A stretch of DNA of 64,000 nucleotides, from the NCBI RefSeq assembly GCF_000375485.1, contig NZ_AQXE01000004.1, positions 172,069-236,068 on the forward strand. The letters are read 5' to 3'. A program made the position numbers and the translations under genes. This DNA is from Desulfovibrio oxyclinae DSM 11498 (lineage in GTDB: Bacteria; Desulfobacterota; Desulfovibrionia; Desulfovibrionales; Desulfovibrionaceae). Positions 3 through 12,433 of this stretch are shown in pieces (the stretch's first letter is position 1; each line of letters begins with the position of its first letter). The notes under the pieces were generated by a model. That model was not told where the DNA came from and ran no database searches. It saw only the letters and a list, made by a program, of their open reading frames with translations.

Positions 3-932
3 GAGATTGAAGTCTTCACGGAAAAGAAGTGCGCGCCCGTGCTGGAGAACAATCCGCACATATCCAAGGTGTGGGCGCTGGACAAAAACGAGGTTGCCTC
101 TCCGCTGAAGGCTCTCGGGTATTATGCCCGCGTCGGGCGAGGCAAGGATCTGATCATCGATTTCCAGCAGCTGCCGAGAACCCGCTGGGTGGCCATGCTC
201 TCTGGTGCACCCGTGCGCCTGACCTTCACGCCTCCGTGGTACAACAAGTTCGTTTACACGCATTATCGCCGCAACGATGACGGCTATGCAGCCAAATGCA
301 AGGCGAGCATCCTCAAGCTGCTCGGCATAGAATGGGACCGACATCCGCCGGAAATCTTTCTTTCCGATGAGGAAAAGGCCTTTGCCGACGATTTTCTGAA
401 ACGCATCGGGGCAACCGAAGGTGTCGTCACCGTGGATCCGAGCCACCGTCGCAAAACGCGCAAATGGCCCGAAGAGCATTTCGCGGGCTTGATCCGTGGC
501 ATCCGCGAGGAGCACCCCGGCCTGAAATTCGTTCTGCTCTATGGACCGGGCGAAGTAGACGTCTGCCGCAAAGTGGCCGATCTGGCGGGCGAGGGGGCCG
601 TGATTCCCGAAGACATGCTGTCGCTCCGGCAGATGGCCGCGGTCCAGCAGCGCGCCTTACTGCATATGGGCAACTGTTCGGCCCCGCGCCATATGGCGGT
701 GGCGGTCGGCACCCCATCGCTGGTGGTGCACGGTGCCACCGGGTTCGCCTGGCGGTTCCCGTCCGAAGATCATGTCGGCGTTATCAAGAAGCTGCCGTGC
801 CAGCCCTGCAACGAAAACGAATGCAGCCATATTTCCTGCCTGAAGGAGCTGACGCCTGCCGAATGTCTGCCGCAGGCACTGAAGCTGGTGCGCAACTCGC
901 TTGATGCACAGGCGGAGCAGACTGATGGGTAA
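3..932 (+). CDS. Glycosyltransferase family 9 (heptosyltransferase-like), 5' end cut by window edge
   Basis: The reading frame is open from the first in-frame codon at position 3, so the gene begins upstream and only its C-terminal roughly 309 residues are present. The truncated N-terminus aligns with the usual GT9 stretch in which the first Rossmann half is followed by a 'PVLENNP' segment. The C-terminal half keeps the nucleotide-sugar-binding pattern: a VTVDPS strand, a KWPEEHFAGLI motif and a late glycine/serine-rich loop (HMGNCSAPRHMAVAVGTP). GT9 enzymes transfer ADP-heptose or related sugars to the LPS inner core on the cytoplasmic face. A cysteine cluster (CQPCNENECSHISC) near the end recalls the CxxC segments of many heptosyltransferases. 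It overlaps the next GT gene by 8 bp, so both are probably co-translated. The acceptor sugar cannot be told from sequence. Confidence 0.88.
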   Translation, partial: EIEVFTEKKCAPVLENNPHISKVWALDKNEVASPLKALGYYARVGRGKDLIIDFQQLPRTRWVAMLSGAPVRLTFTPPWYNKFVYTHYRRNDDGYAAKCKASILKLLGIEWDRHPPEIFLSDEEKAFADDFLKRIGATEGVVTVDPSHRRKTRKWPEEHFAGLIRGIREEHPGLKFVLLYGPGEVDVCRKVADLAGEGAVIPEDMLSLRQMAAVQQRALLHMGNCSAPRHMAVAVGTPSLVVHGATGFAWRFPSEDHVGVIKKLPCQPCNENECSHISCLKELTPAECLPQALKLVRNSLDAQAEQTDG

Positions 933-2067
933 ACCGGCTACGGAACGGAGACTGAAGGTCGCGCTCGTCATAGGCGGGTTGCCTTACGGCGGCGTGGAGA
1001 CTTCGTTTCTGCTCGTGGCGAGAAGGCTGCGAGAGCTGGGGCATGAGCCGGTTATCATCAATGTTTCCGGCACAGGCGAGTACGAATCGGTTTACAGGGA
1101 ATACGGCTTCGACCCCATCCATGCCGGGGAGAGCAAGAAGGTACTCAAGACGAGCCGCCTCGACACGGCGCTGCGGCTTCGCAGGATTTTACGCGACCTG
1201 AACCCGGACATCATTCATACCGCGCATTTTTCCGCCAACTATCACGTGCGCATCGGCGCGGTGGGACTCGGCATCCCGGTCATCATGCACTGCCGAAACA
1301 TCAAGCGGATGAAGTCGTTCCGCCGCTTTGCGGACAAAGTCCTTTCCCGTGTCACCACGAAATACCTTGCCGTATCGAAAGCCGTGGCCGAGGTGGTGCA
1401 ACAGGATCACAACGTGACGGGCAGGCCGGTTCAGGTGTTGTACAACGCCATTTCGAGTGAGAAAATGAACGTCGAGCCGGCGGACTTGAGTGAATTTCCT
1501 CAACTGGAGGGACAGGGGCCGCTGGTGGTCGTCTGCTCGCGTCTGGTAAAGCAGAAGAACGTGGATGTGATTATCCGGGCGTTCGTGCGGGCTCTTGATG
1601 CGGTGCCGGACATGCGGATGCTCGTCATGGGTGACGGTTCCGAGCGGGATGCACTCACGGCGTTGGCGGTCGGCGAGGGCGTCGCGGACAAGGTGGCCTT
1701 TGCCGGATTCCGCCAGGACGCGCCCGCGTTGCTTCGTGCCGCTGCGGCGAGAAAGGCGGTTTTCGCCATGGTCTCCGACTACGAGGGCTTTTCCAATGCG
1801 CTGACCGAGGCCATGTACTGCGGCATCCCTGCGGTGATCAGTGAGCACGTGCCCAACCGTGAGGTGACCGGAGAAGCAGCCAGAGTGGTGCCGATTGATG
1901 AAGCATCCGTCGCCGCAAGTCTTGAGACCATCCTGACGGACGCCGAACTCTATGACCGCATGAGTGCCCAAGCCGTCACGGTGGCGGAGCAGTTGACCAT
2001 CGAACCGCACGTTGACGAGCTGGTTGCCGTTTACCGCGAGTTGGTTGGCGGGGATGGAGCGGCGTAG
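925..2067 (+). CDS. Glycosyltransferase family 4
   Basis: A 380-residue GT-B enzyme with retaining GT4 character. The N-terminus has a glycine-rich loop (VIGGLPYGGVETS) and the C-terminal domain ends in the E-x7-E signature (EGFSNALTEAMYCG) that binds the nucleotide-sugar donor. I chose ATG 925, overlapping the upstream stop, because GGCGGAG lies 7 nt before it; more upstream TTG and ATG codons lack a Shine-Dalgarno. Its position inside a GT9-GT4-GT4 run points to assembly of the LPS core or O-antigen at the cytoplasmic membrane. Donor and linkage are unknown. Confidence 0.87.
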   Translation: MGKPATERRLKVALVIGGLPYGGVETSFLLVARRLRELGHEPVIINVSGTGEYESVYREYGFDPIHAGESKKVLKTSRLDTALRLRRILRDLNPDIIHTAHFSANYHVRIGAVGLGIPVIMHCRNIKRMKSFRRFADKVLSRVTTKYLAVSKAVAEVVQQDHNVTGRPVQVLYNAISSEKMNVEPADLSEFPQLEGQGPLVVVCSRLVKQKNVDVIIRAFVRALDAVPDMRMLVMGDGSERDALTALAVGEGVADKVAFAGFRQDAPALLRAAAARKAVFAMVSDYEGFSNALTEAMYCGIPAVISEHVPNREVTGEAARVVPIDEASVAASLETILTDAELYDRMSAQAVTVAEQLTIEPHVDELVAVYRELVGGDGAA

Positions 2068-2109: not shown

Positions 2110-3282
2110 TTGAAGATTGCCGGAGTCTTGTGGGATAACCTGTTCAAAGCGGGGGGGCGCGAGGTCTTCACGCTGAACCTTTTCAGCCGTTTTGCAGAAA
2201 TGGGGCATGATGTCACCCTCTATGTCCCCGAAAGAGAAGGCAGAAAACGAAAGGCGCTTTATGAAAGTCTGCCGTTTGAGGTTCGCTTTTTCCCGCGGTG
2301 GCAGAAGCTATCCTTCACCAGGTTTCCATCATTGCTAGGACGTTGGCTGAATCTTGAGCAGCAGCGACACAGGTTTGATGTCTGGCAGGCAATGGGAGCA
2401 TATCCTGAGGCATTTCTCGCTTCATACGTGAGTTGCCCGAGTACTGTCAGGTTTTACGGAGAGGACATTCAGATTTGCCAGGAGTTGAACTACGGCATTC
2501 GGCTTGATCTGAAAAGTGCCGCAAGAATACGATCTTCTTTGCCAAGTTTAGCGGGCATCGTGGCTATGACTCCGTCTCTTGCGAAGGATGCAGAAGCAAT
2601 GGGGGCCCATAGGGACCGCATCGAGCTGATTCCCAACGCCATTGATTTTCCCCGACTCCAATCCACATCCGATGCGGAATTGCGGCATCGGAACAATATT
2701 GGCGAGAACGAAACGGTTTTTTTGACAGTGGGCAGAAACCACCCCAAAAAGGGCTATGATCTGATTCCCGAGATTGCCGCCCGTCTGAAAGGCAGGGGCT
2801 GGAAATGGGTTGTGGTCGGAGACAGGGGAGACGGCATACTCGACGAGCTTGAGCAAAAAGGGCTGGCAGAGCAGTTCCGTTTTATTCCCGAGTTGAAGAA
2901 CGACGATCATGAAATCAGCCAAGGGCGCAGCCAGATGCCGCCTCAGGCACTGATCGATTGGTTCGTGTCTTCGGACGTGATGGTGCTGCCTTCTCGGCTG
3001 GAGGGCTTTTCACGTGTCATTGCCGAATCCATGGGTGCCGGCCTGCCGGTGGTGACAACTGATGCTCCAGGGTGCGGCGAGGTGCTGGAGAACGGTGTAC
3101 ACGGTCTTGTTGCTCCAAAAGACGATGTGGATAAGCTTGCTGAGCGGATGAATGCCCTACTGGATTCATCGGAACTAAGATTCAGTCTGGGGGAAAGTGC
3201 CCGGCAGTATGCCAACGGAATGGACTGGCCCACGGTTGCAGGACGATATCTGGCGCATTATGAGAAGCTGAGAACATGGTAA
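2110..3282 (+). CDS. Glycosyltransferase family 4
   Basis: A 390-residue GT4-type protein with N-terminal acceptor domain and a C-terminal donor domain starting near residue 195 (VFLTVGRNHPKKGYDLI). The E-x7-E motif (EGFSRVIAESMGAG) is intact. The best start is TTG 2110, preceded by GGAGG with 6 nt spacing; no ATG is better placed. It lies 42 bp after the previous GT and is co-directional, so the three GT genes likely form one operon for surface polysaccharide. The mid-protein insertion 'DDHEISQGRSQMPPQ' is not typical of housekeeping GT4 members, so the acceptor may be specific to this locus. Confidence 0.86.
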   Translation: MKIAGVLWDNLFKAGGREVFTLNLFSRFAEMGHDVTLYVPEREGRKRKALYESLPFEVRFFPRWQKLSFTRFPSLLGRWLNLEQQRHRFDVWQAMGAYPEAFLASYVSCPSTVRFYGEDIQICQELNYGIRLDLKSAARIRSSLPSLAGIVAMTPSLAKDAEAMGAHRDRIELIPNAIDFPRLQSTSDAELRHRNNIGENETVFLTVGRNHPKKGYDLIPEIAARLKGRGWKWVVVGDRGDGILDELEQKGLAEQFRFIPELKNDDHEISQGRSQMPPQALIDWFVSSDVMVLPSRLEGFSRVIAESMGAGLPVVTTDAPGCGEVLENGVHGLVAPKDDVDKLAERMNALLDSSELRFSLGESARQYANGMDWPTVAGRYLAHYEKLRTW

Positions 3283-3331: not shown

Positions 3332-4309
3332 ATGGAAAAATGGCTTATTACTGGCGGATGTGGTTTTATCGGTTTAAACCTTATTAAGCATCTTATAAAA
3401 CAAGGTGGTGTGACCATCCGCATTGTGGACAACCTTTCTGTTGGTTCTAGGGAGAGGTTACGGCAGGTCGTTGAGTATTCTAATGCAGAACCAGACGAAG
3501 AATATGGTCCAGCTGGAAGTGTTCAGCTTGTCGTTGGTGATGTGACTGATATGGAGAGGATGAAAAATATTACAAGAGAAACGGATGTCGTTGTTCACCT
3601 TGCGGCGAACACTGGGGTGCCCAAGTCCGTTGATGACCCTCAGATGGATTTTTATCAAAATGTAGAAGGTACTTTTGTTACTCTTGAGGCGGCTCGTTAT
3701 AATAAAGTAAAAAGATTTATTTTTGCTTCTAGTGGAGCCCCTGCCGGGATTTGTGTTCCACCGATTACAGAACAAATGCCCCCTCGCCCTATATCGCCTT
3801 ACGGGGCAAGCAAGCTAGCTGGAGAAGGGTATTGCTCCGCATACTATGGTTCTTATGGTATAGAAACAGTTGCTTTAAGATTCAGCAATGTCTATGGGCC
3901 ATTGTCGGGGCATAAGACAAGCGTTGTTGCTAAATTTATTAATGAGGCCATTCAAAATTCTCCATGGATTGTTTATGGAGACGGGTCACAGACTCGAGAT
4001 TTTCTTTATATAGATGACTTGGTTCAGGCGATAGTTCAGGCCACCACAGTGGATGATGTTGGAGGAGAGGTCTTCCAAATCGCAACCGGTGTAGAAGTGT
4101 CTGTACAGGCTATGCTGGAAAAACTATCTATGGAAATGGTCCGCCATGGATACAAAGGGGCCGAGGTTCAATATCACTCTCCAAGGAAGGGAGATGTGAT
4201 GCGAAACTATTCTGATGTAACTAAGGCAAACACTCTTTTGAAGTGGAAGGCAGAAACAACTCTTGAGGAAGGTTTGGCAAAGACTTTGGAGTGGTTTTGT
4301 AAAAGCTAG
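3332..4309 (+). CDS. NAD-dependent nucleotide-sugar epimerase/dehydratase (extended SDR)
   Basis: A 325-residue extended short-chain dehydrogenase. The GGCGFIG dinucleotide loop is at residues 8-14 and the catalytic YxxxK at Tyr157/Lys161 (SPYGASKLAGEG). The active-site strand reads FASSGAPAG rather than the SSSAVYG of GalE, as in a branch of UDP-glucose-4-epimerase-like proteins found in polysaccharide loci. It probably isomerises or dehydrates a UDP-hexose for the neighbouring transferases. Codon use and base composition shift sharply here: this gene and the next two are AT-rich compared with the GT genes upstream, a sign of horizontal acquisition. The exact reaction is not determined. Confidence 0.87.
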   Translation: MEKWLITGGCGFIGLNLIKHLIKQGGVTIRIVDNLSVGSRERLRQVVEYSNAEPDEEYGPAGSVQLVVGDVTDMERMKNITRETDVVVHLAANTGVPKSVDDPQMDFYQNVEGTFVTLEAARYNKVKRFIFASSGAPAGICVPPITEQMPPRPISPYGASKLAGEGYCSAYYGSYGIETVALRFSNVYGPLSGHKTSVVAKFINEAIQNSPWIVYGDGSQTRDFLYIDDLVQAIVQATTVDDVGGEVFQIATGVEVSVQAMLEKLSMEMVRHGYKGAEVQYHSPRKGDVMRNYSDVTKANTLLKWKAETTLEEGLAKTLEWFCKS

Positions 4310-5306: not shown

Positions 5307-6050
5307 ATGCATTTAAAAAAAATAAGACCGTATCTTACTGGTGAGCTTTTCCACTCTCCTCTTAATGTGGACCTTCCACAGAAGAAATTTCCAAAGATGG
5401 AAAGAGATTCTTTTCTGCGAAAAACTCTAAGCGGTAAGAAAGTTCTCCATGTTGGATATGTGGCACAAAAGAATCTACCAGAGCGAATAGCTAAAGGTTC
5501 ATGGCTTCATGGGCAACTTTTAGAGGTGACAGAGAGGTGCATGGGGGTTGATATTAACTGTGAAGGTGTGGAGTGGTTAAGAAACGAGCATGATATAGGT
5601 GACGCAGTTTGTATTGATGTGGAAAAAGATCACTGTCAGGAAATCGCCGACGGACAATGGGATTATGCTCTACTCGGCGAAGTGTTGGAACATGTCCATA
5701 ATCCCGTAAGTTTTCTTAAGTCATTCAAGAGATATGATTCTATTAAGCGAGTTCTTGTTACTGTGCCGAACCTGCTAAATATCAAAAACTACCAATTGAT
5801 GTTTGACTATAAAGAATCAATAAACAGTGACCATAGATTCAGTTTTACACCATTCAATCTGTGCAAGACCTTAACCACTGCGGGTTTCCATGTTGAAGAT
5901 ATTAATTTTTGTGTGCTGACTAAAAACTTACCAGCCCCAGTGAAATGGAAACATAGTTTGGATAAACGAATTGGTAAAGGAGATGGGTACCCTTTTTATG
6001 CGTTTGAAAAACTTGTAGTTACTGCTGCAAATGGAATTACCAGTGAATAG
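5307..6050 (+). CDS. SAM-dependent methyltransferase (class I-like)
   Basis: A 247-residue protein with a shortened class I methyltransferase core: the first strand KVLHVGYV near residue 46 replaces the usual E/DxGxGxG, the ribose-binding acidic residue sits in MGVDINCEGVEWL, and the post-II motif is DYALLGEVLEHVHNP. The final part (YPFYAFEKLVVTA) matches the beta-hairpin end of the fold. It most likely methylates a sugar or a lipid-linked glycan made by the preceding enzymes, a common cap for O-antigen. The degenerate glycine loop is a caution; it could bind SAM weakly. Last gene of the + strand glycan run, followed by a convergent gene. Confidence 0.7.
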   Translation: MHLKKIRPYLTGELFHSPLNVDLPQKKFPKMERDSFLRKTLSGKKVLHVGYVAQKNLPERIAKGSWLHGQLLEVTERCMGVDINCEGVEWLRNEHDIGDAVCIDVEKDHCQEIADGQWDYALLGEVLEHVHNPVSFLKSFKRYDSIKRVLVTVPNLLNIKNYQLMFDYKESINSDHRFSFTPFNLCKTLTTAGFHVEDINFCVLTKNLPAPVKWKHSLDKRIGKGDGYPFYAFEKLVVTAANGITSE

Positions 6051-6163: not shown

Positions 6164-7348
6164 TCACCACTTAATCCCTTTGAAGATAATCGCTTTTCTG
6201 ATGGTGGATTTATGCTTTTCCACCACTTCAAACATCTCCCTGACCACCTTTTCGGTAAGGTAGTGCGGGATGACGCCAAGATCGAGAAGGCCTTGATATA
6301 CTGGGTTGTAGTAGTGCTCTTCGGCTTCTTTTCTTGGGTTTTCAAGTTGCTTGACTTCTACCGCGTGCCCTCGGGTTTTTCCTACGGTTGCGATAAGGTC
6401 GGCAATCTGGTTGACGCTCAGTGTTTCCATGATCTGGTTGAAAATGCGCAGTTCGCCAGCCTCAGCTGGAGTCTCCAGCGCTTTGTGGACGCACTGAAGG
6501 GTATCCTTGATGTTGAGGTATCCGCGAGTCTGGCCGCCTTTTCCGTAGACGGTGAGAGGATACCCTACAACAGCTTGAACGATGAAGCGGTTCACCACGG
6601 TTCCGAAGACTTCATCATAGTTGAAGATTGTTCTTAATCTGGGATCCAGCAGGGACTCGTCGGTATCCACGCCGTATACCGGACCCTGCATGAGGTCGGT
6701 CACCTTCAGGTCCCACATACGAACGCCGAACCAGAGCAGATCGGTGTCCATGATTTTGCTCGTGTGATAGATCGACCCGGCCTGTCTCGGGAAAAGAAAT
6801 TTGTCTTCACGTCCCTTGTGGCTGATGTCAATCCAGCCTTCCTCAATATCAATATTCGGAGTGCCGTATTCGCCCATGGTACCGAGTTTGACAATGTGCA
6901 CATCGGGGGCCATGTCCTTGACGGCGAACATCAGGTTGTTGGTGACGAGAAGGTTGTTGGTGATCGTGGTGTTCGCGTGATTGTGATCTATCAGCGAATA
7001 AGGAGCGGAAGGCTGCTCCGCATAGTGGACAACCGCCTCGGGCACGCCTGTAAAGTTTTCGTTTACAGCCCAGTCGTAGGAAACGTCGCCGGAAAAGAGG
7101 TTGCGAACATTCTCGGGCTGGGCCAAATCGGCCAGAACCACCTTGATTTCAAGCCCGGTAAGTTCGTGCCAAATACGTGCGCGCTCAGGCAGCGAGGGGA
7201 CGTCGTAAAGCATGGCAACATCCAGCTCGCGGCAGCTTTCGCGTCGGAAGTAGTTGTCAACCACGGTTACTTGATGCCCTTTTCTTGAAAGGTACATGGC
7301 GGTGGGCCAGCCCAGATAGCCGTCTCCACCAAGAATTACAATATGCAT
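6164..7348 (-). CDS. sqdB: UDP-sulfoquinovose synthase homologue (SQD1/SqdB type)
   Basis: A 394-residue extended SDR that follows plant SQD1 and bacterial SqdB almost motif by motif: GGDGYLG (residues 7-13) for NAD, EQPSAPYSLID near 111, the signature KLGTMGEYGTPNIDIEEG near 154 that carries the active-site Thr157, Tyr194-x3-Lys198 as catalytic pair, PLTVYGKGGQTRGYL, and NPRKEAEEHYYNP near the end. The family converts UDP-glucose plus sulfite to UDP-sulfoquinovose, the head-group donor for sulfolipid or for sulfonated glycans. No sulfoquinovosyl-diacylglycerol synthase (SqdX/SqdD) lies nearby; neighbours are glycan genes and a sulfotransferase. I infer use in a surface polysaccharide. Recognition of the family is strong; the final product is inference. 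Confidence 0.9.
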   Translation of the reverse strand: MHIVILGGDGYLGWPTAMYLSRKGHQVTVVDNYFRRESCRELDVAMLYDVPSLPERARIWHELTGLEIKVVLADLAQPENVRNLFSGDVSYDWAVNENFTGVPEAVVHYAEQPSAPYSLIDHNHANTTITNNLLVTNNLMFAVKDMAPDVHIVKLGTMGEYGTPNIDIEEGWIDISHKGREDKFLFPRQAGSIYHTSKIMDTDLLWFGVRMWDLKVTDLMQGPVYGVDTDESLLDPRLRTIFNYDEVFGTVVNRFIVQAVVGYPLTVYGKGGQTRGYLNIKDTLQCVHKALETPAEAGELRIFNQIMETLSVNQIADLIATVGKTRGHAVEVKQLENPRKEAEEHYYNPVYQGLLDLGVIPHYLTEKVVREMFEVVEKHKSTIRKAIIFKGIKW

Positions 7349-7452
7349 AAGCTGTTCAACCTTTCTTCCGCCTTGGCGGGCTTCGCAAAGGACTGTATGA
7401 GTCTTGCTCGTGTTAACGAAAATTTTTAGTAAATGAAGATGGATAATTATGG

Positions 7453-8235
7453 CTAACCCTGAGAATGCTTTGAAAGGCGAACGTACTTTAAGAGGCTGTA
7501 TGCCTTACTGTTTTCTGCCGGGTACAAAAAGCCGAGCAAACACCTCATAAGAGAACATAAGAAGCTTTTTCTTTGGCGAGACCGAAACATTCCGGGGTCT
7601 CTCGCATCTGTCAATTGGCGGCCCATAAATTTTTGCAGGCGGTTGAACTCTTCGCATCCGTTCATGAACATGCTGTACTCGAAAACGATCACTTGTTCCG
7701 GCTGTCGTGTTGCCAAAATGTCATAAATATTAGCATTGTAAAAGGCCCAAGCTCTCAGGACTTTCCAACAAAGGGGAATGAGCCTGTATCCTTTGATAAT
7801 GCCACTGAAAAAGCTTCGACCAGAAAGAAAGTCGCGTTTGTAACGAAGCCAAAGTTCAACAGGGTCTCGATAAACAGCTATGATGCGATGATTTTCTGGG
7901 AGATATGGGAGCCATGCAAAGTATGTCAAACAGGTTCGCGGGTCTTTGAAGCCTTGGTCTCCTTCCTGTATGAAGTCGATTGCATTTTCTATAGTGTTTT
8001 TGTCCTTGTTGGCAAGATCCTCCGGATATAACGGATGAAAGACATCGACACTGAACACTCCCCAAGCGTTGAGAAGCGTTTTATTGGCAGCTAAGGTCTC
8101 TGCTCGTTCGAATTTGTTACCTTTATCATAAGTTATGCCAGAGTCGAACGTACCCATTTTGACACCGCTCTCGTGCAGAATGCGTGATACGAGTGTCGTC
8201 CCTGATTTATGCATGCCAAGAACTATGTATAGCAT
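7453..8235 (-). CDS. PAPS-dependent sulfotransferase family protein
   Basis: A 260-residue protein beginning with the 5'-phosphosulfate-binding loop GMHKSGTTLVSRIL (residues 7-20) and carrying a 3'-phosphate-binding segment with VYRDPVE further on, the two hallmarks of PAPS sulfotransferases. I chose ATG 8235, which has GAGG 6 nt upstream; an in-frame TTG 12 nt earlier overlaps that Shine-Dalgarno. Such enzymes move sulfate from PAPS to a hydroxyl of a sugar or lipid. It sits directly upstream of the sulfoquinovose synthase gene on the same strand, making sulfated glycan a plausible product. AT-rich composition matches the island. The substrate is unknown. Confidence 0.82.
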   Translation of the reverse strand: MLYIVLGMHKSGTTLVSRILHESGVKMGTFDSGITYDKGNKFERAETLAANKTLLNAWGVFSVDVFHPLYPEDLANKDKNTIENAIDFIQEGDQGFKDPRTCLTYFAWLPYLPENHRIIAVYRDPVELWLRYKRDFLSGRSFFSGIIKGYRLIPLCWKVLRAWAFYNANIYDILATRQPEQVIVFEYSMFMNGCEEFNRLQKFMGRQLTDARDPGMFRSRQRKSFLCSLMRCLLGFLYPAENSKAYSLLKYVRLSKHSQG

Positions 8236-8370: not shown

Positions 8371-9420
8371 TTAATATTGCGGCAACACATCTATCTCGTT
8401 AAGGAAGTCGAGAATTTCATCATGGCTCATGTGCGGCTCATTGCCTGAATGGTATGGGTTGTCTACCTTGTCAGAGACCACTTTCGGGTAATCGAAGCTG
8501 ATGTCTTTATAGAGCCCCCTGAAGGCGGGCGGGACAACGAAATATTCCTGTAGTTCAATGGCTCTCCTCGTTTCCTCGCCGGTCATGAGTTCTTCGTACA
8601 TCTTTTCGCCCGGCTTGACCCCTATAACATCTATGGGGATCGAGTCCGGAGAATGCCCATACATGGGCGCGACGGCCTTGACCATCACTTCAGCCAGATC
8701 GCGAATGCGCAAGACTGGCATCTTGGTGATGAACACTTCTCCGCCGCAAGCGTGGAATGCGGAATCAATGACGAGCTGAACGGCTCGCTTGATGCTCATG
8801 ACGAACCGAGTCATGTCGTTGTCGGTCAGAGTGATGGGTTTGCCCTGGCGAATCTGCTCGTGAAAAATGGGAATGACCGACCCCCGGGACCCCATGACGT
8901 TGCCGAAGCGAGTAGATACGAGAATTGTGCTGTGCTCGCGCTGGAAGGCGTTGGCTGCCGTTACCAGCCGCTCTCCCATGAGCTTGGAGGTGCCCATCAC
9001 GTTGGTGGGGTTAACCGCTTTGTCGGAGCTGGTGAAGACGACTTTGGATACACCATTTTCGATTGCGGTTCGGGTAATGTTCTGAACTCCGATGATATTG
9101 TTTTGAACCGCTTCGTACGGAGAACGTTCGCAAAGCGTGACGTGCTTGAACGCTGCTGCGTGGAAAACCACATCAATGCCATCCATGATCATGGAGAGGC
9201 TATTGAAGTCTCTCACATCAACAAGAAGAAACCGTGCATTCTCAAATTGTTTGAAACGTTGTTCGAGAAAAAACAACTCGGTTTCATTGTTGTCGATACA
9301 CAGCACTTCAGCCGGAGAGTAGTGATTCAACAGCTGATGTACAAGTTCGTTACCAATAGTCCCGCAGGCTCCGGAAACGAGAATTTTTTTGCCATTCAAA
9401 GCCTGTCCAGCGTCTGTCAT
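8371..9420 (-). CDS. UDP-N-acetylglucosamine 4,6-dehydratase-like (short CapD/PseB form)
   Basis: A 349-residue soluble member of the Polysacc_synt_2 family. The Rossmann loop is SGACGTIGNEL near residue 15 and the active-site strand TSSDKAVNPTNVMGTSK contains the Asp-Lys pair that replaces Tyr in this family. RFGNVMGSRGSV and a late PGEKMYEELM complete the family pattern. It lacks the N-terminal membrane domain of the full-length PglF/FlaA1 enzyme encoded at 27-29 kb, so the window holds two different dehydratases. Likely product is a UDP-4-keto-6-deoxy-HexNAc for surface glycans; whether it also epimerises C5 like PseB cannot be read from sequence. Confidence 0.85.
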   Translation of the reverse strand: MTDAGQALNGKKILVSGACGTIGNELVHQLLNHYSPAEVLCIDNNETELFFLEQRFKQFENARFLLVDVRDFNSLSMIMDGIDVVFHAAAFKHVTLCERSPYEAVQNNIIGVQNITRTAIENGVSKVVFTSSDKAVNPTNVMGTSKLMGERLVTAANAFQREHSTILVSTRFGNVMGSRGSVIPIFHEQIRQGKPITLTDNDMTRFVMSIKRAVQLVIDSAFHACGGEVFITKMPVLRIRDLAEVMVKAVAPMYGHSPDSIPIDVIGVKPGEKMYEELMTGEETRRAIELQEYFVVPPAFRGLYKDISFDYPKVVSDKVDNPYHSGNEPHMSHDEILDFLNEIDVLPQY

Positions 9421-9839: not shown

Positions 9840-11645
9840 TTACCCCTCATGCTCCATGCCACGCGCCTCTGTTTCCGTCAATTCCGTCTGGAACTGAAGC
9901 CGGTGCAGTGTCTGGTAGAGCGAGCAGGACTCGATGAGTTCTTCGTGTCGGCCGGTGGCCACCACTTCGCCCTTGCTCATGACAACGATCTTGTCGGCGT
10001 TCAGCACCGTGGAAAGCCGGTGCGCGATGACGATGCTCGTGCGGCTTTCCATGAGGTTGTCCAGCGCCTTCTGGACGATGCGTTCTGCCTGCGTGTCCAG
10101 TGCGCTGGTGGCTTCGTCGAGGATGAGCAGCGCCGGATTCTTGAGCAGGGCGCGGGCAATGGTCAGGCGCTGCTTCTGGCCGCCTGAGAGCTTGACGCCG
10201 CGTACACCGCAGACCGTGTCGTAGCCTGCCGGCAGACCCTCGATGAATTCGTGCGCGTACGCCGCCTTTGCGGCCTCCTGTACCTGTTCATCGGTGATGT
10301 CGTCCTGACCGTAGGCGATGTTGGCCCGGATGGTCGTGTTAAAGAGCATGGCGTCCTGCGAAACCATGCCGATGTTGCGTCTGAGCGAACCCAGTTCGTA
10401 TTCTTCCACGTTCACGCCGTTGAGGCGGATGGTTCCTTCGTCCGCATCATAGAAGCGGGGCAGCAGGTTCACGAGGGTGGTCTTGCCCGATCCGCTGGGA
10501 CCAACAATGGCCACGCGCTCGCCGCCGCGCACATGCAGCGTGAGCTCCTTGATGGCGGGTTCCGAGCCCGTGGGATAGGAGAAGCTGATGTTCTCGATCT
10601 CAAGGCTCTTGAGCGGTGTTTCAAAGGGTGTGTCCCCGCCTTCTTCGGGCAGGATGGTCTCGGAGTCGAGAAGGCCGAAGACGCGCTCGCCGCTTGCGAG
10701 GGACCGCTGGATGGTCTTGTTGGCGTCGTTGATCTTCTTGATGGGCTCGTAAAGCATGATGAGCGCTGCCACGAAGGAGAAGAACGTTCCCGGGGTGGAT
10801 TCGCCGCTCAGGACACGGGAGCCGCCGTACCAGAGCACGAAGCTGACCGCGACGCCCCCCACCATTTCCATAATGCGAGAAGAGAGTTCGCTCGCCAGCA
10901 CCTGTTTCTTTGAAAGACGCAGTATGCCGCTGCTTTCCTTGGAAAAGGATTTAATTTCATCTTTTTCTGCGTGGAACGCCTTGATGAGCCGGATGTTGCT
11001 GAGGCATTCCTCGGCGACGGAGTTGATGTCAGCGGCCTGCACCTGCAATTTGCGCCCGATCTTCCGCAGCCGCTTGCCGAAGAGAATGACCGGATAGCAG
11101 AGCATCGGTAGTACCAGAAGCGCGATGATGGCCATCTTCCAGTCCTGATAGATGACAACGCCGATGAGGCCGATGCAGGTGAAGAACTCGCGGATGACCA
11201 TGATCATGGCCGGGACGCTCTGGCGGATGCCGTTGACGTCGCCCAGCACGCGCGACATGAGCATGCCGACGCGGCTTTCCTCGAAAAAGCGTATGGAGAG
11301 CGTCATCAGCTTGGAGAACAGCTCGCTTCGCAGCTGGTGCAGCACTTTGAAGCCCGTGACGTTCATGATGTACGTCTGGGTGAAGCGCGCGATGTTCTTG
11401 AGGGTGATGACACAGAAGTAGGCCAGCGGGATGAGTATCAGCGCGTCCTTGTCGCCCTTGACGAAGATGTCGTCCATGGCGGGCTTGACCAGATACGCTG
11501 TGGCGCCGGTGGTTCCGGAAACCACGATGGCCGAAAGGAAGGCCACCAGAATGCGCCAGCGGTACGGCCAGAAATAGGCGACGCACCGTTTCAGCAGGTG
11601 TCGGTTACCGAGGTTTTCTATGTTCTTGAGATCGTATTGCGACAA
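9840..11645 (-). CDS. msbA: Lipid A export ABC transporter (MsbA-like), fused membrane and ATPase domains
   Basis: A roughly 600-residue ABC half-transporter. The N-terminal half has six predicted membrane segments; the ATPase domain has Walker A GPSGSGKTT, the signature LSGGQKQR and Walker B LLILDEATSALD. The family forms homodimers that flip lipid A-core or related lipids across the inner membrane, in keeping with the surrounding LPS genes and with waaA/kdsB elsewhere in the window. Start choice: TTG 11645 has GAGGAG 7 nt upstream, whereas ATG 11660 (five codons earlier) has no visible Shine-Dalgarno; both give nearly the same protein. Other multidrug exporters share the architecture, so the lipid substrate is inferred from context. 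Confidence 0.85.
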   Translation of the reverse strand: MSQYDLKNIENLGNRHLLKRCVAYFWPYRWRILVAFLSAIVVSGTTGATAYLVKPAMDDIFVKGDKDALILIPLAYFCVITLKNIARFTQTYIMNVTGFKVLHQLRSELFSKLMTLSIRFFEESRVGMLMSRVLGDVNGIRQSVPAMIMVIREFFTCIGLIGVVIYQDWKMAIIALLVLPMLCYPVILFGKRLRKIGRKLQVQAADINSVAEECLSNIRLIKAFHAEKDEIKSFSKESSGILRLSKKQVLASELSSRIMEMVGGVAVSFVLWYGGSRVLSGESTPGTFFSFVAALIMLYEPIKKINDANKTIQRSLASGERVFGLLDSETILPEEGGDTPFETPLKSLEIENISFSYPTGSEPAIKELTLHVRGGERVAIVGPSGSGKTTLVNLLPRFYDADEGTIRLNGVNVEEYELGSLRRNIGMVSQDAMLFNTTIRANIAYGQDDITDEQVQEAAKAAYAHEFIEGLPAGYDTVCGVRGVKLSGGQKQRLTIARALLKNPALLILDEATSALDTQAERIVQKALDNLMESRTSIVIAHRLSTVLNADKIVVMSKGEVVATGRHEELIESCSLYQTLHRLQFQTELTETEARGMEHEG

Positions 11646-11779
11646 GAGGATGCTCCTCATTCTGTGATAAGATTGGCGGCCGCCGCCAGCCTGAGCCGGG
11701 CGCGCGGAACCGGGTGCAGATTTATCGCATCGCACCCGGTGGAGCAACCTTCTTTTTGGTTGCGAAAAAGGGGTGTGAT

Positions 11780-12433
11780 TCAGGGCACGAGCACGTTCAG
11801 GCGCAGGGTGTCCGTCATGCCCAGCGGGGAGTCGTTGCCTTTCTGGCCGAGAAAGTCGCGCATTGCCCTTCGTTGGGATTCGTTGTCCTTGACGCCGTAA
11901 TACCCAAAGGCATAGTCGGCCACATCCTCGAAGTCCTTGAATGTCCAGTCGGTTTCAAAGTGTTCGGTTGCGATGCAGTGGTCCTTCCTGCCTGCAAGCG
12001 TGCCCAGCGCGCGCTCAAGCCGATGGTTCTCGTTTTCGAAAATGTTGCAGAGCCGCTGGATTTCGCTCTCGGCGCAAGGTTCCAGTACCAGAATCCTTCC
12101 TCCGGGCCGAAGCAGCCTGCAGGCTTCTGCGAGCGCATGGTCCGAATCCGGGTGGTGATGCAGTGAGAGTGTGAAAAGGACGATGTCGAAAGAGGCGTCC
12201 GCGAAGGGCGCATCCATGCCGGAACCGCAAAGAATGTGGGTTTTTCTCAAGATGCGCGAGGCGTCGCCAGCAGCGATTTCATCGGGTTCGATACCCACCG
12301 TGAGGGCGGGAATTGGCTCATACATGGCGGTGACACGACCGCCGCCGCAGCCGATCTCCAGCACGCGGGCTTGTTCGAAAGCGGCGTGGCGCAGGAGCAT
12401 GGCCAGTGTTTTGCGTTCCTGATCCTGAATCAT
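11780..12433 (-). CDS. Class I SAM-dependent methyltransferase
   Basis: A 217-residue protein with a canonical SAM fold: VLEIGCGGGRVTAMYEP (motif I, near residue 24), an acidic motif II in LTVGIEPDEI, FDIVLFTLSLHHHPD (motif IV) and LRPGGRILVLEP (motif V). The rest resembles UbiE/Methyltransf_11-type enzymes, and the C-terminal part is family-specific without a recognised substrate. It lies between msbA and a DNA-repair helicase, all on the minus strand, and could belong to either group. I do not assign a substrate. Confidence 0.82.
   Translation of the reverse strand: MIQDQERKTLAMLLRHAAFEQARVLEIGCGGGRVTAMYEPIPALTVGIEPDEIAAGDASRILRKTHILCGSGMDAPFADASFDIVLFTLSLHHHPDSDHALAEACRLLRPGGRILVLEPCAESEIQRLCNIFENENHRLERALGTLAGRKDHCIATEHFETDWTFKDFEDVADYAFGYYGVKDNESQRRAMRDFLGQKGNDSPLGMTDTLRLNVLVP

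Follow-up and report, generated by a model that had tools for sequence, protein, structure and literature searches.

SQD1 and SqdB, the UDP-sulfoquinovose synthases of plants and cyanobacteria, share with a protein of the sulfate reducer Desulfovibrio oxyclinae DSM 11498 their fold, the motifs GGDGYxG, TMGEYGTPN, YHxxK and KGGQTRGYL, and 46% identity. The D. oxyclinae protein differs from them in having Pro rather than Arg at position 101, in its pairing with a CapD-like gene and in its setting, a surface-glycan island. A second described system is Agl3 of Sulfolobus acidocaldarius, an SQD1-family enzyme that serves a surface glycan rather than sulfolipid (PMC4388408), which is the role proposed for the present protein; however, Agl3 needs Arg101, at which place the present protein has Pro. 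An SQD1-family gene grouped in one operon with GalE-type epimerases is also on record, namely SqdB with two GalE homologues in Haloquadratum walsbyi (PMC1544339), although that operon is archaeal, is read there as serving sulfolipid synthesis, and has no CapD-like partner mentioned in the portion of the paper available. The CapD-like protein belongs to the family of the UDP-GlcNAc dehydratases Pen (6bwc) and WbpM/PglF and carries their triad [ST]DK..M..K, but unlike these it is soluble, scores under the NCBIfam cut-offs of all 25 families among the matches listed, and is linked to an SQD1-like gene. Sulfoquinovose production is assigned to phototrophs and certain archaea in a 2026 review (PMC12890257), and for sulfofucose no route of synthesis was known according to a 2025 paper (PMC12421959). 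In the open-access literature on sulfosugars of bacterial surface glycans, nothing was found on the cassette described below.

The window, that is, the whole stretch of 64,000 nucleotides that was analysed, opens with a glycan locus of 11 ORFs:

3..932 (+), GT9 heptosyltransferase-like glycosyltransferase, crossing the window edge (the listed ORF starts at 39)
901..2067 (+), GT4 glycosyltransferase (profile match)
2110..3282 (+), GT4 glycosyltransferase (profile match)
3332..4309 (+), GalE/WbpP-like epimerase, 325 aa
4352..5284 (+), GT8-like protein, a weak match below cut-off; no tblastn match in 80 related loci
5307..6050 (+), methyltransferase-like protein
6164..7348 (-), SQD1-like NAD-dependent SDR, 394 aa, in which Pro113 replaces SQD1 Arg101; the catalytic pair Tyr194/Lys198 and TMGEYG are present
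7453..8235 (-), Sulfotransfer_3-family PAPS sulfotransferase-like protein, 260 aa from an ATG start (264 aa, reaching 8247, if translation begins at TTG)
8371..9420 (-), soluble nucleotide-sugar dehydratase like CapD, Pen and PseB, 349 aa, with a WbpM/PglF-type triad, SDK..M..K; conserved partner of the SQD1-like gene
9840..11747 (-), MsbA-like lipid A flippase, scoring 577.5 bits against a cut-off of 602
11780..12433 (-), class I methyltransferase at the locus edge

GC content is 40-52% in 1-kb intervals from about 2.5 to 10 kb, 53-56% at the two edges and 58-66% outside, and because it forms a GC-poor island inside a GC-richer region, this segment looks acquired. The DNA upstream of the window holds ordinary genes, such as one for an Hsp90-like protein (read by eye). 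A phage or plasmid home was considered and rejected, as there was no phage match and the 11 plasmid records found at E up to 1e-60 were all less than 60% identical. Profile scans of the 11 ORFs of the locus matched neither Wzx or Wzy nor a Wzm/Wzt-type family, the exporter being MsbA-like instead, and for this reason a role in LPS core or LOS is likelier than the O-antigen destination given in the initial annotation; the GT9 heptosyltransferase-like, GT4, GT8-like and MsbA-like matches would likewise suit an LPS-core or LOS-like glycan. The same annotation had noted no sulfolipid synthase nearby, and none is named among the NCBIfam matches listed for the other locus proteins.

The 394-residue protein had been credited with the full SQD1/SqdB motif set. 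The ORF and the four motifs quoted, GGDGYLG (residues 7-13), KLGTMGEYGTPN, Tyr194/Lys198 and KGGQTRGYL, are present, but Arg101 of SQD1 (EQRSAPYS) is replaced by Pro113 (EQPSAPYS). The SQD1 chains 1qrr/1i24 in the PDB match the product over its full length with E about 6e-113, far beyond chance, at a sequence identity of 46-47%. In an AlphaFold model with a mean pLDDT of 84.0, the top three PDB structure matches are SQD1 (TM 0.86, 45-46% identity) and the next is a UDP-glucose 4-epimerase (TM 0.62), and the protein thus combines full-length homology to SQD1 with the SQD1 fold. It also carries the active-site signature [ST]MG..Y..K tabulated in PMC8987622, as well as equivalents of Agl3 His95, Met145, Tyr182 and Lys186. 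Its score against NCBIfam NF041015 (UDPsulfquin_syn) is 422 bits, below the cut-off of 575. This cut-off was dropped as a membership test because cyanobacterial SqdB fails it too: of 39 cyanobacterial genomes none reached it (13 gave matches at E up to 1e-40, with 483 bits as the best score), and the S. elongatus control alone did. Automatic naming by the NF041015 cut-off is, as a side observation, very narrow. The gene is the single one of its type in its own genome, the other two matches being short and epimerase-like.

A protein search returned at least 8000 matches, with identity of at least 71% among the 120 matches listed. Relatives' loci, the best 80 of 513, were fetched from named genomes and span Desulfobacterota, Gammaproteobacteria, Alphaproteobacteria, Cyanobacteria and others. 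The gene is patchy in the genus, where 9 of 36 genomes, the window's own among them, gave SQD1-like matches at E up to 1e-40, three of them at just 38-41% identity; across the phylum, 27 of 297 sampled genomes have a match. A second sample came from 369 gammaproteobacterial genomes, 16 of which matched at E up to 1e-90 (one of these had been used before); it comprises 16 loci. Since L207 and L208 duplicate the records L052 and L075, the total is 94 distinct loci rather than 96. Other repeats are L090 = L048, L093 = L067, L094 = L070, L095 = L083 and L184 = L044, and a protein segment is shared by L015, L016 and L019 and likewise by L216 and L217. For downstream genes, 44 of 69 were scanned.

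Position 101 divides the family. Agl3 becomes inactive on alanine replacement of His95, Arg101, Met145, Tyr182 or Lys186 (PMC4388408). Because the unit of activity in that paper is formation of the 5,6-ene, Arg101 seems to matter before sulfite addition. All 80 loci from named genomes have Pro at this position, as do 99 of 99 rows of the window clade, with no newly conserved basic residue. After repeats were removed, 150 distinct SQD1-like rows comprised 121 with Pro and 29 with Arg. Arg is kept in SQD1, in all 13 rows of the cyanobacterial SqdB branch (L118, L119, L138-L148) and in a Sinorhizobium meliloti plasmid homologue (L187); Pro is found in the second SQD1-like copy of Okeania (L009, L010) and, as ELPSA, in L220 and L221. 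Twelve new alphaproteobacterial rows include seven with Arg and five with Pro (L150-L154). In a tree of 65 of the 135 rows, built with column 101 included, a branch with support 86 sets the Arg rows apart and the window clade (38 rows) has support 100; being unrooted, the tree does not tell whether Arg or Pro is ancestral. The choice of the Arg-type groups (15/15 and 11/11 Arg) was partly visual and made with knowledge of the residue (L104, L110, L111, L113), and hence was not blind.

The initial annotation identified the protein as a UDP-sulfoquinovose synthase acting on UDP-glucose and sulfite, an identity that is not supported, since Arg101, which Agl3 needs, is Pro throughout the clade. 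No characterised enzyme of the Pro-type clade was found in the open-access literature. It is nonetheless conceivable, if fairly unlikely in our estimation, that the Arg101 change is tolerated and that the protein is a plain UDP-sulfoquinovose synthase working for a surface glycan and not for sulfolipid, as Agl3 does in Sulfolobus. Its identity to SQD1 and its top structural match would agree with this, as would the retention of the other His, Met, Tyr and Lys residues whose loss inactivates Agl3 and the 57-60% identity to SQD1 of the Pro-type rows L150 and L152. Against it stand the clade-wide Pro, set beside the Arg of SQD1, of 13 cyanobacterial SqdB rows and of the S. meliloti homologue, and the inactivity of Agl3 R101A (PMC4388408). 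Another sugar substrate is one way to account for the change. The loss of Arg101 could also mean a wholly different chemistry, because the tables that give R101A as inactive count activity as 5,6-ene formation, and some clade members, such as L030 and L087, have Val at the place of Agl3 Glu147; both points weigh against the reading that we prefer. Present evidence does not justify naming the window protein a 'UDP-sulfoquinovose synthase', though it likely works like one.

The conserved partner of the SQD1-like gene is the CapD-like gene. In 74 of the 80 loci a CapD-like relative occurs on the same strand at up to 10 kb, and in 73 it is no further than 1.8 kb away, mostly upstream and in six cases downstream; each of the six loci that lack one offers just 3-797 bp of upstream sequence. 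The triad [ST]DK..M..K, which is the WbpM/PglF pattern in the table of PMC8987622, was read in 73 of 73 relatives from 73 loci. In the phylum sample, read with 1.5-kb flanks, 13 of the 15 loci with at least 53% identity have a CapD-like gene as direct neighbour, against none of 12 more distant ones; four of those 15 repeat the 80-locus set, which makes 10 of 11 new loci. The gammaproteobacterial sample gave 12 of 16 (10 of 14 new). Within the genus, L180 and L181 have the CapD-like gene next to the SQD1-like one, and L182 and L183 lack it; these last two, together with L164 (alphaproteobacterial) and L102, are close members without such a neighbour, which counts against our preferred reading. 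In 41 of the 80 loci a GalE-like relative (E up to 1e-40) is found no more than 10 kb from the SQD1-like gene, often directly downstream, and epimerase triads were read in 39 loci. The window keeps both partners but holds them apart, with the sulfotransferase intervening on one side and a convergent GT8-like/methyltransferase pair on the other. UDP-sulfoquinovose synthesis is not known to involve a CapD-like enzyme, and the near-constant presence of this partner therefore argues further against a plain synthase.

The same partner brings in a sulfite-independent alternative, in which the SQD1-like protein is a UDP-hexose 5,6-dehydratase (an exo-glycal former) or an epimerase that acts with a Pen/WbpM-like dehydratase towards a deoxy or L-configured sugar, in the manner of TunA or Pen/Pal. 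The best PDB sequence match of the CapD-like protein is indeed 6bwc, that is, Pen, a 5,6-dehydratase (PMC8987622), Agl3 deprived of sulfite yields UDP-glucose-5,6-ene (PMC4388408), and Arg is lost with no compensating basic residue. The repeated presence of CysH-family genes inside these glycan loci speaks against it, and we regard this alternative as improbable.

CysH, the PAPS/APS reductase, makes sulfite. Six of 94 distinct loci (L023, L047, L077, L206, L212, L214) have a gene of this family at most 3.2 kb from the SQD1-like gene. In L023 (an epsilonproteobacterium), L077 (a gammaproteobacterium) and L047 (an alphaproteobacterium, on the opposite strand) a PAPS/APS reductase is found at up to 3.1 kb, and in L206, L212 and L214 a CysH-family gene is adjacent or within 3.2 kb on the same strand; L211 has one about 8 kb off. 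All six near genes score above the Pfam PF01507 cut-off, and four of them pass the NF002537 equivalog cut-off of 154 bits (L023 181.5, L077 263.6, L047 232.5, L206 246.4), L212 (94.5) and L214 (82.4) being divergent. The C-terminal ECG[IL]H is kept in all seven CysH-family proteins (L023 read by eye), no evident cysteine operon was seen by eye around these genes, and L023 and L077 come from genomes whose sole PF01507 match of CysH length is the one in the cassette. Assuming 1.5 CysH-family genes per 3 Mb, 0.26 (about 0.3) would be expected by chance within 3.2 kb in 94 loci against the six seen (Poisson 4e-7, for loci that are not fully independent), and when the outer flanks of these loci served as a stricter comparison, P was 0.015. 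Besides CysH, the only non-glycan metabolic families present within 3.2 kb in at least three loci are sulfotransferase (4 loci) and APS kinase (3), counted by eye through sequence reading rather than domain scan in all 96 loci, two of them repeats. The other families that recur to this extent are glycan genes, small four-helix proteins, one or two unidentified families and spurious ORFs. The linkage in 6 of 94 loci would fit a plain synthase as well.

Two side observations belong to these neighbourhoods. Small four-helix-bundle proteins, presumably of the 23S intervening-sequence type, stand beside the cassette in 10 loci (L029, L032, L048, L065, L085 and others), one of which is a repeat record (L208 = L075). 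L023 (6300-9968) has both CysH and a metallo-beta-lactamase and rhodanese fusion, the latter flanked by the CapD-like and SQD1-like genes; the idea that this fusion acts as a persulfide dioxygenase was rejected, as both Pfam domains are found but NCBIfam Blh reaches just 45.5 of 625 bits and the case is single.

As the initial annotation stated, a PAPS-type sulfotransferase adjoins the SQD1-like gene on the same strand. Its ORF lies 104 bp away, between the SQD1-like and CapD-like genes, it scores 28.0 bits against a Sulfotransfer_3 cut-off of 27, and its 5'-phosphosulfate loop GMHKSGTTL is intact and invariant across 13 aligned rows. An APS kinase in the same genome (218.6 bits, over cut-off, at C8:88674) could supply PAPS. 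The window sulfotransferase has 550 homologues among 775 candidates, yet tblastn gave no match to it in any of the 80 loci at E up to 1e-5, nor at 1e-6. The conserved pair that had been envisaged was therefore rejected for this sulfotransferase, which appears from sequence comparison not to be an inherited partner of the SQD1-like gene. A profile built from 120 of its homologues detected 15 wider-family ORFs in the 80 loci, and sulfotransferase profile matches occur in 22 of the 80, a rate for SQD1-like loci alone. APS kinase is present in eight of the 80 loci by tblastn, six of which also have a sulfotransferase (Fisher 0.005; some of the loci are close kin). Because of this rate and co-occurrence, sulfated glycans are a plausible second feature of SQD1-like loci. 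Of the sulfonated and sulfated O-antigen proposed earlier, the sulfur-bearing role is thus supported by the CysH-family genes (6/94) and the sulfotransferases (22/80, with APS kinase in 6 of 8), but the O-antigen is not. The description of the host as a sulfate reducer agrees with a dsrA match in the same genome (618.8 bits, over cut-off), which fits the reductive or the oxidative dsr type.

The reading that we prefer, tentatively and as little short of an even bet, is that the SQD1-like, CapD-like and GalE-like proteins form a cassette for a 6-sulfonated sugar nucleotide of an LPS-core-type glycan, made from a substrate that is probably not UDP-glucose. By analogy with SQD1 and Agl3, the SQD1-like enzyme would oxidise C4 through its bound NAD+ and eliminate the C6 hydroxyl to give a 5,6-ene, after which sulfite would be added at C6 and C4 reduced. 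The clade-wide Pro at position 101 and the UDP-HexNAc type of the partner enzymes make a related UDP-sugar the probable substrate, with a 2-acetamido sugar as the likeliest choice. Other Pro-type members are neighbours of NeuA/NeuB/NeuC-like genes, whose products handle acetamido sugars, and this too supports an acetamido substrate. The deoxy pattern and the C4 configuration may then be set in the CapD-like and epimerase steps, the CapD-like step being the least understood. Sulfite could come from dissimilatory metabolism in the sulfate reducer of the window and from the linked CysH elsewhere, and the sulfotransferase probably O-sulfates the same glycan. This reading is supported by the SQD1 fold, the TMG..Y..K site, the CapD-like partnership, the CysH linkage, Pro in 99 of 99 rows, and dsrA with APS kinase in the genome. 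It is weakened by the linkage of CysH in just 6 of 94 loci, with L212 and L214 divergent, L047 on the opposite strand and an outer-flank P of 0.015, and by a 4,6-dehydratase that is not obviously needed for a 6-sulfo sugar.

A sister Pro-type branch (L162, L163, L166, L168; SQD1-like gene at about 9.4-12.9 kb) has nonulosonic-acid-like loci with NeuA/NeuB/NeuC-like genes, and all four of these loci encode a protein of roughly 700 aa, that of L168 having B12-binding and Radical_SAM domains. In two genomes of the window's genus, an Arg-type SQD1-like gene stands directly beside a GalE-like epimerase (L185, 8059-10205; L186, 9597-11746), a pair that is a candidate for a UDP-sulfofucose route. In a broader proposal, which we consider possible but rather doubtful, CapD-like, Pro-type SQD1-like and GalE-like proteins, fed by CysH or dissimilatory sulfite, would constitute a widespread non-photosynthetic pathway to a sulfonated amino sugar nucleotide, such as UDP-6-deoxy-6-sulfo-HexNAc (gluco or galacto), for LPS and other surface glycans, and the sister branch with NeuA/B/C-like genes and a B12-binding radical-SAM protein would lead to sulfonated nonulosonic acids.

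The SQD1-like gene of the window occurs in many other bacteria together with a second sugar enzyme and occasionally with a sulfite-making one, which points to a little-explored sulfur-bearing surface sugar. If the Pro-type clade does not make sulfonated surface sugars, many proteins now named UDP-sulfoquinovose synthase would be misnamed; if it does, heterotrophs and sulfate reducers would be an overlooked source of organosulfonates.
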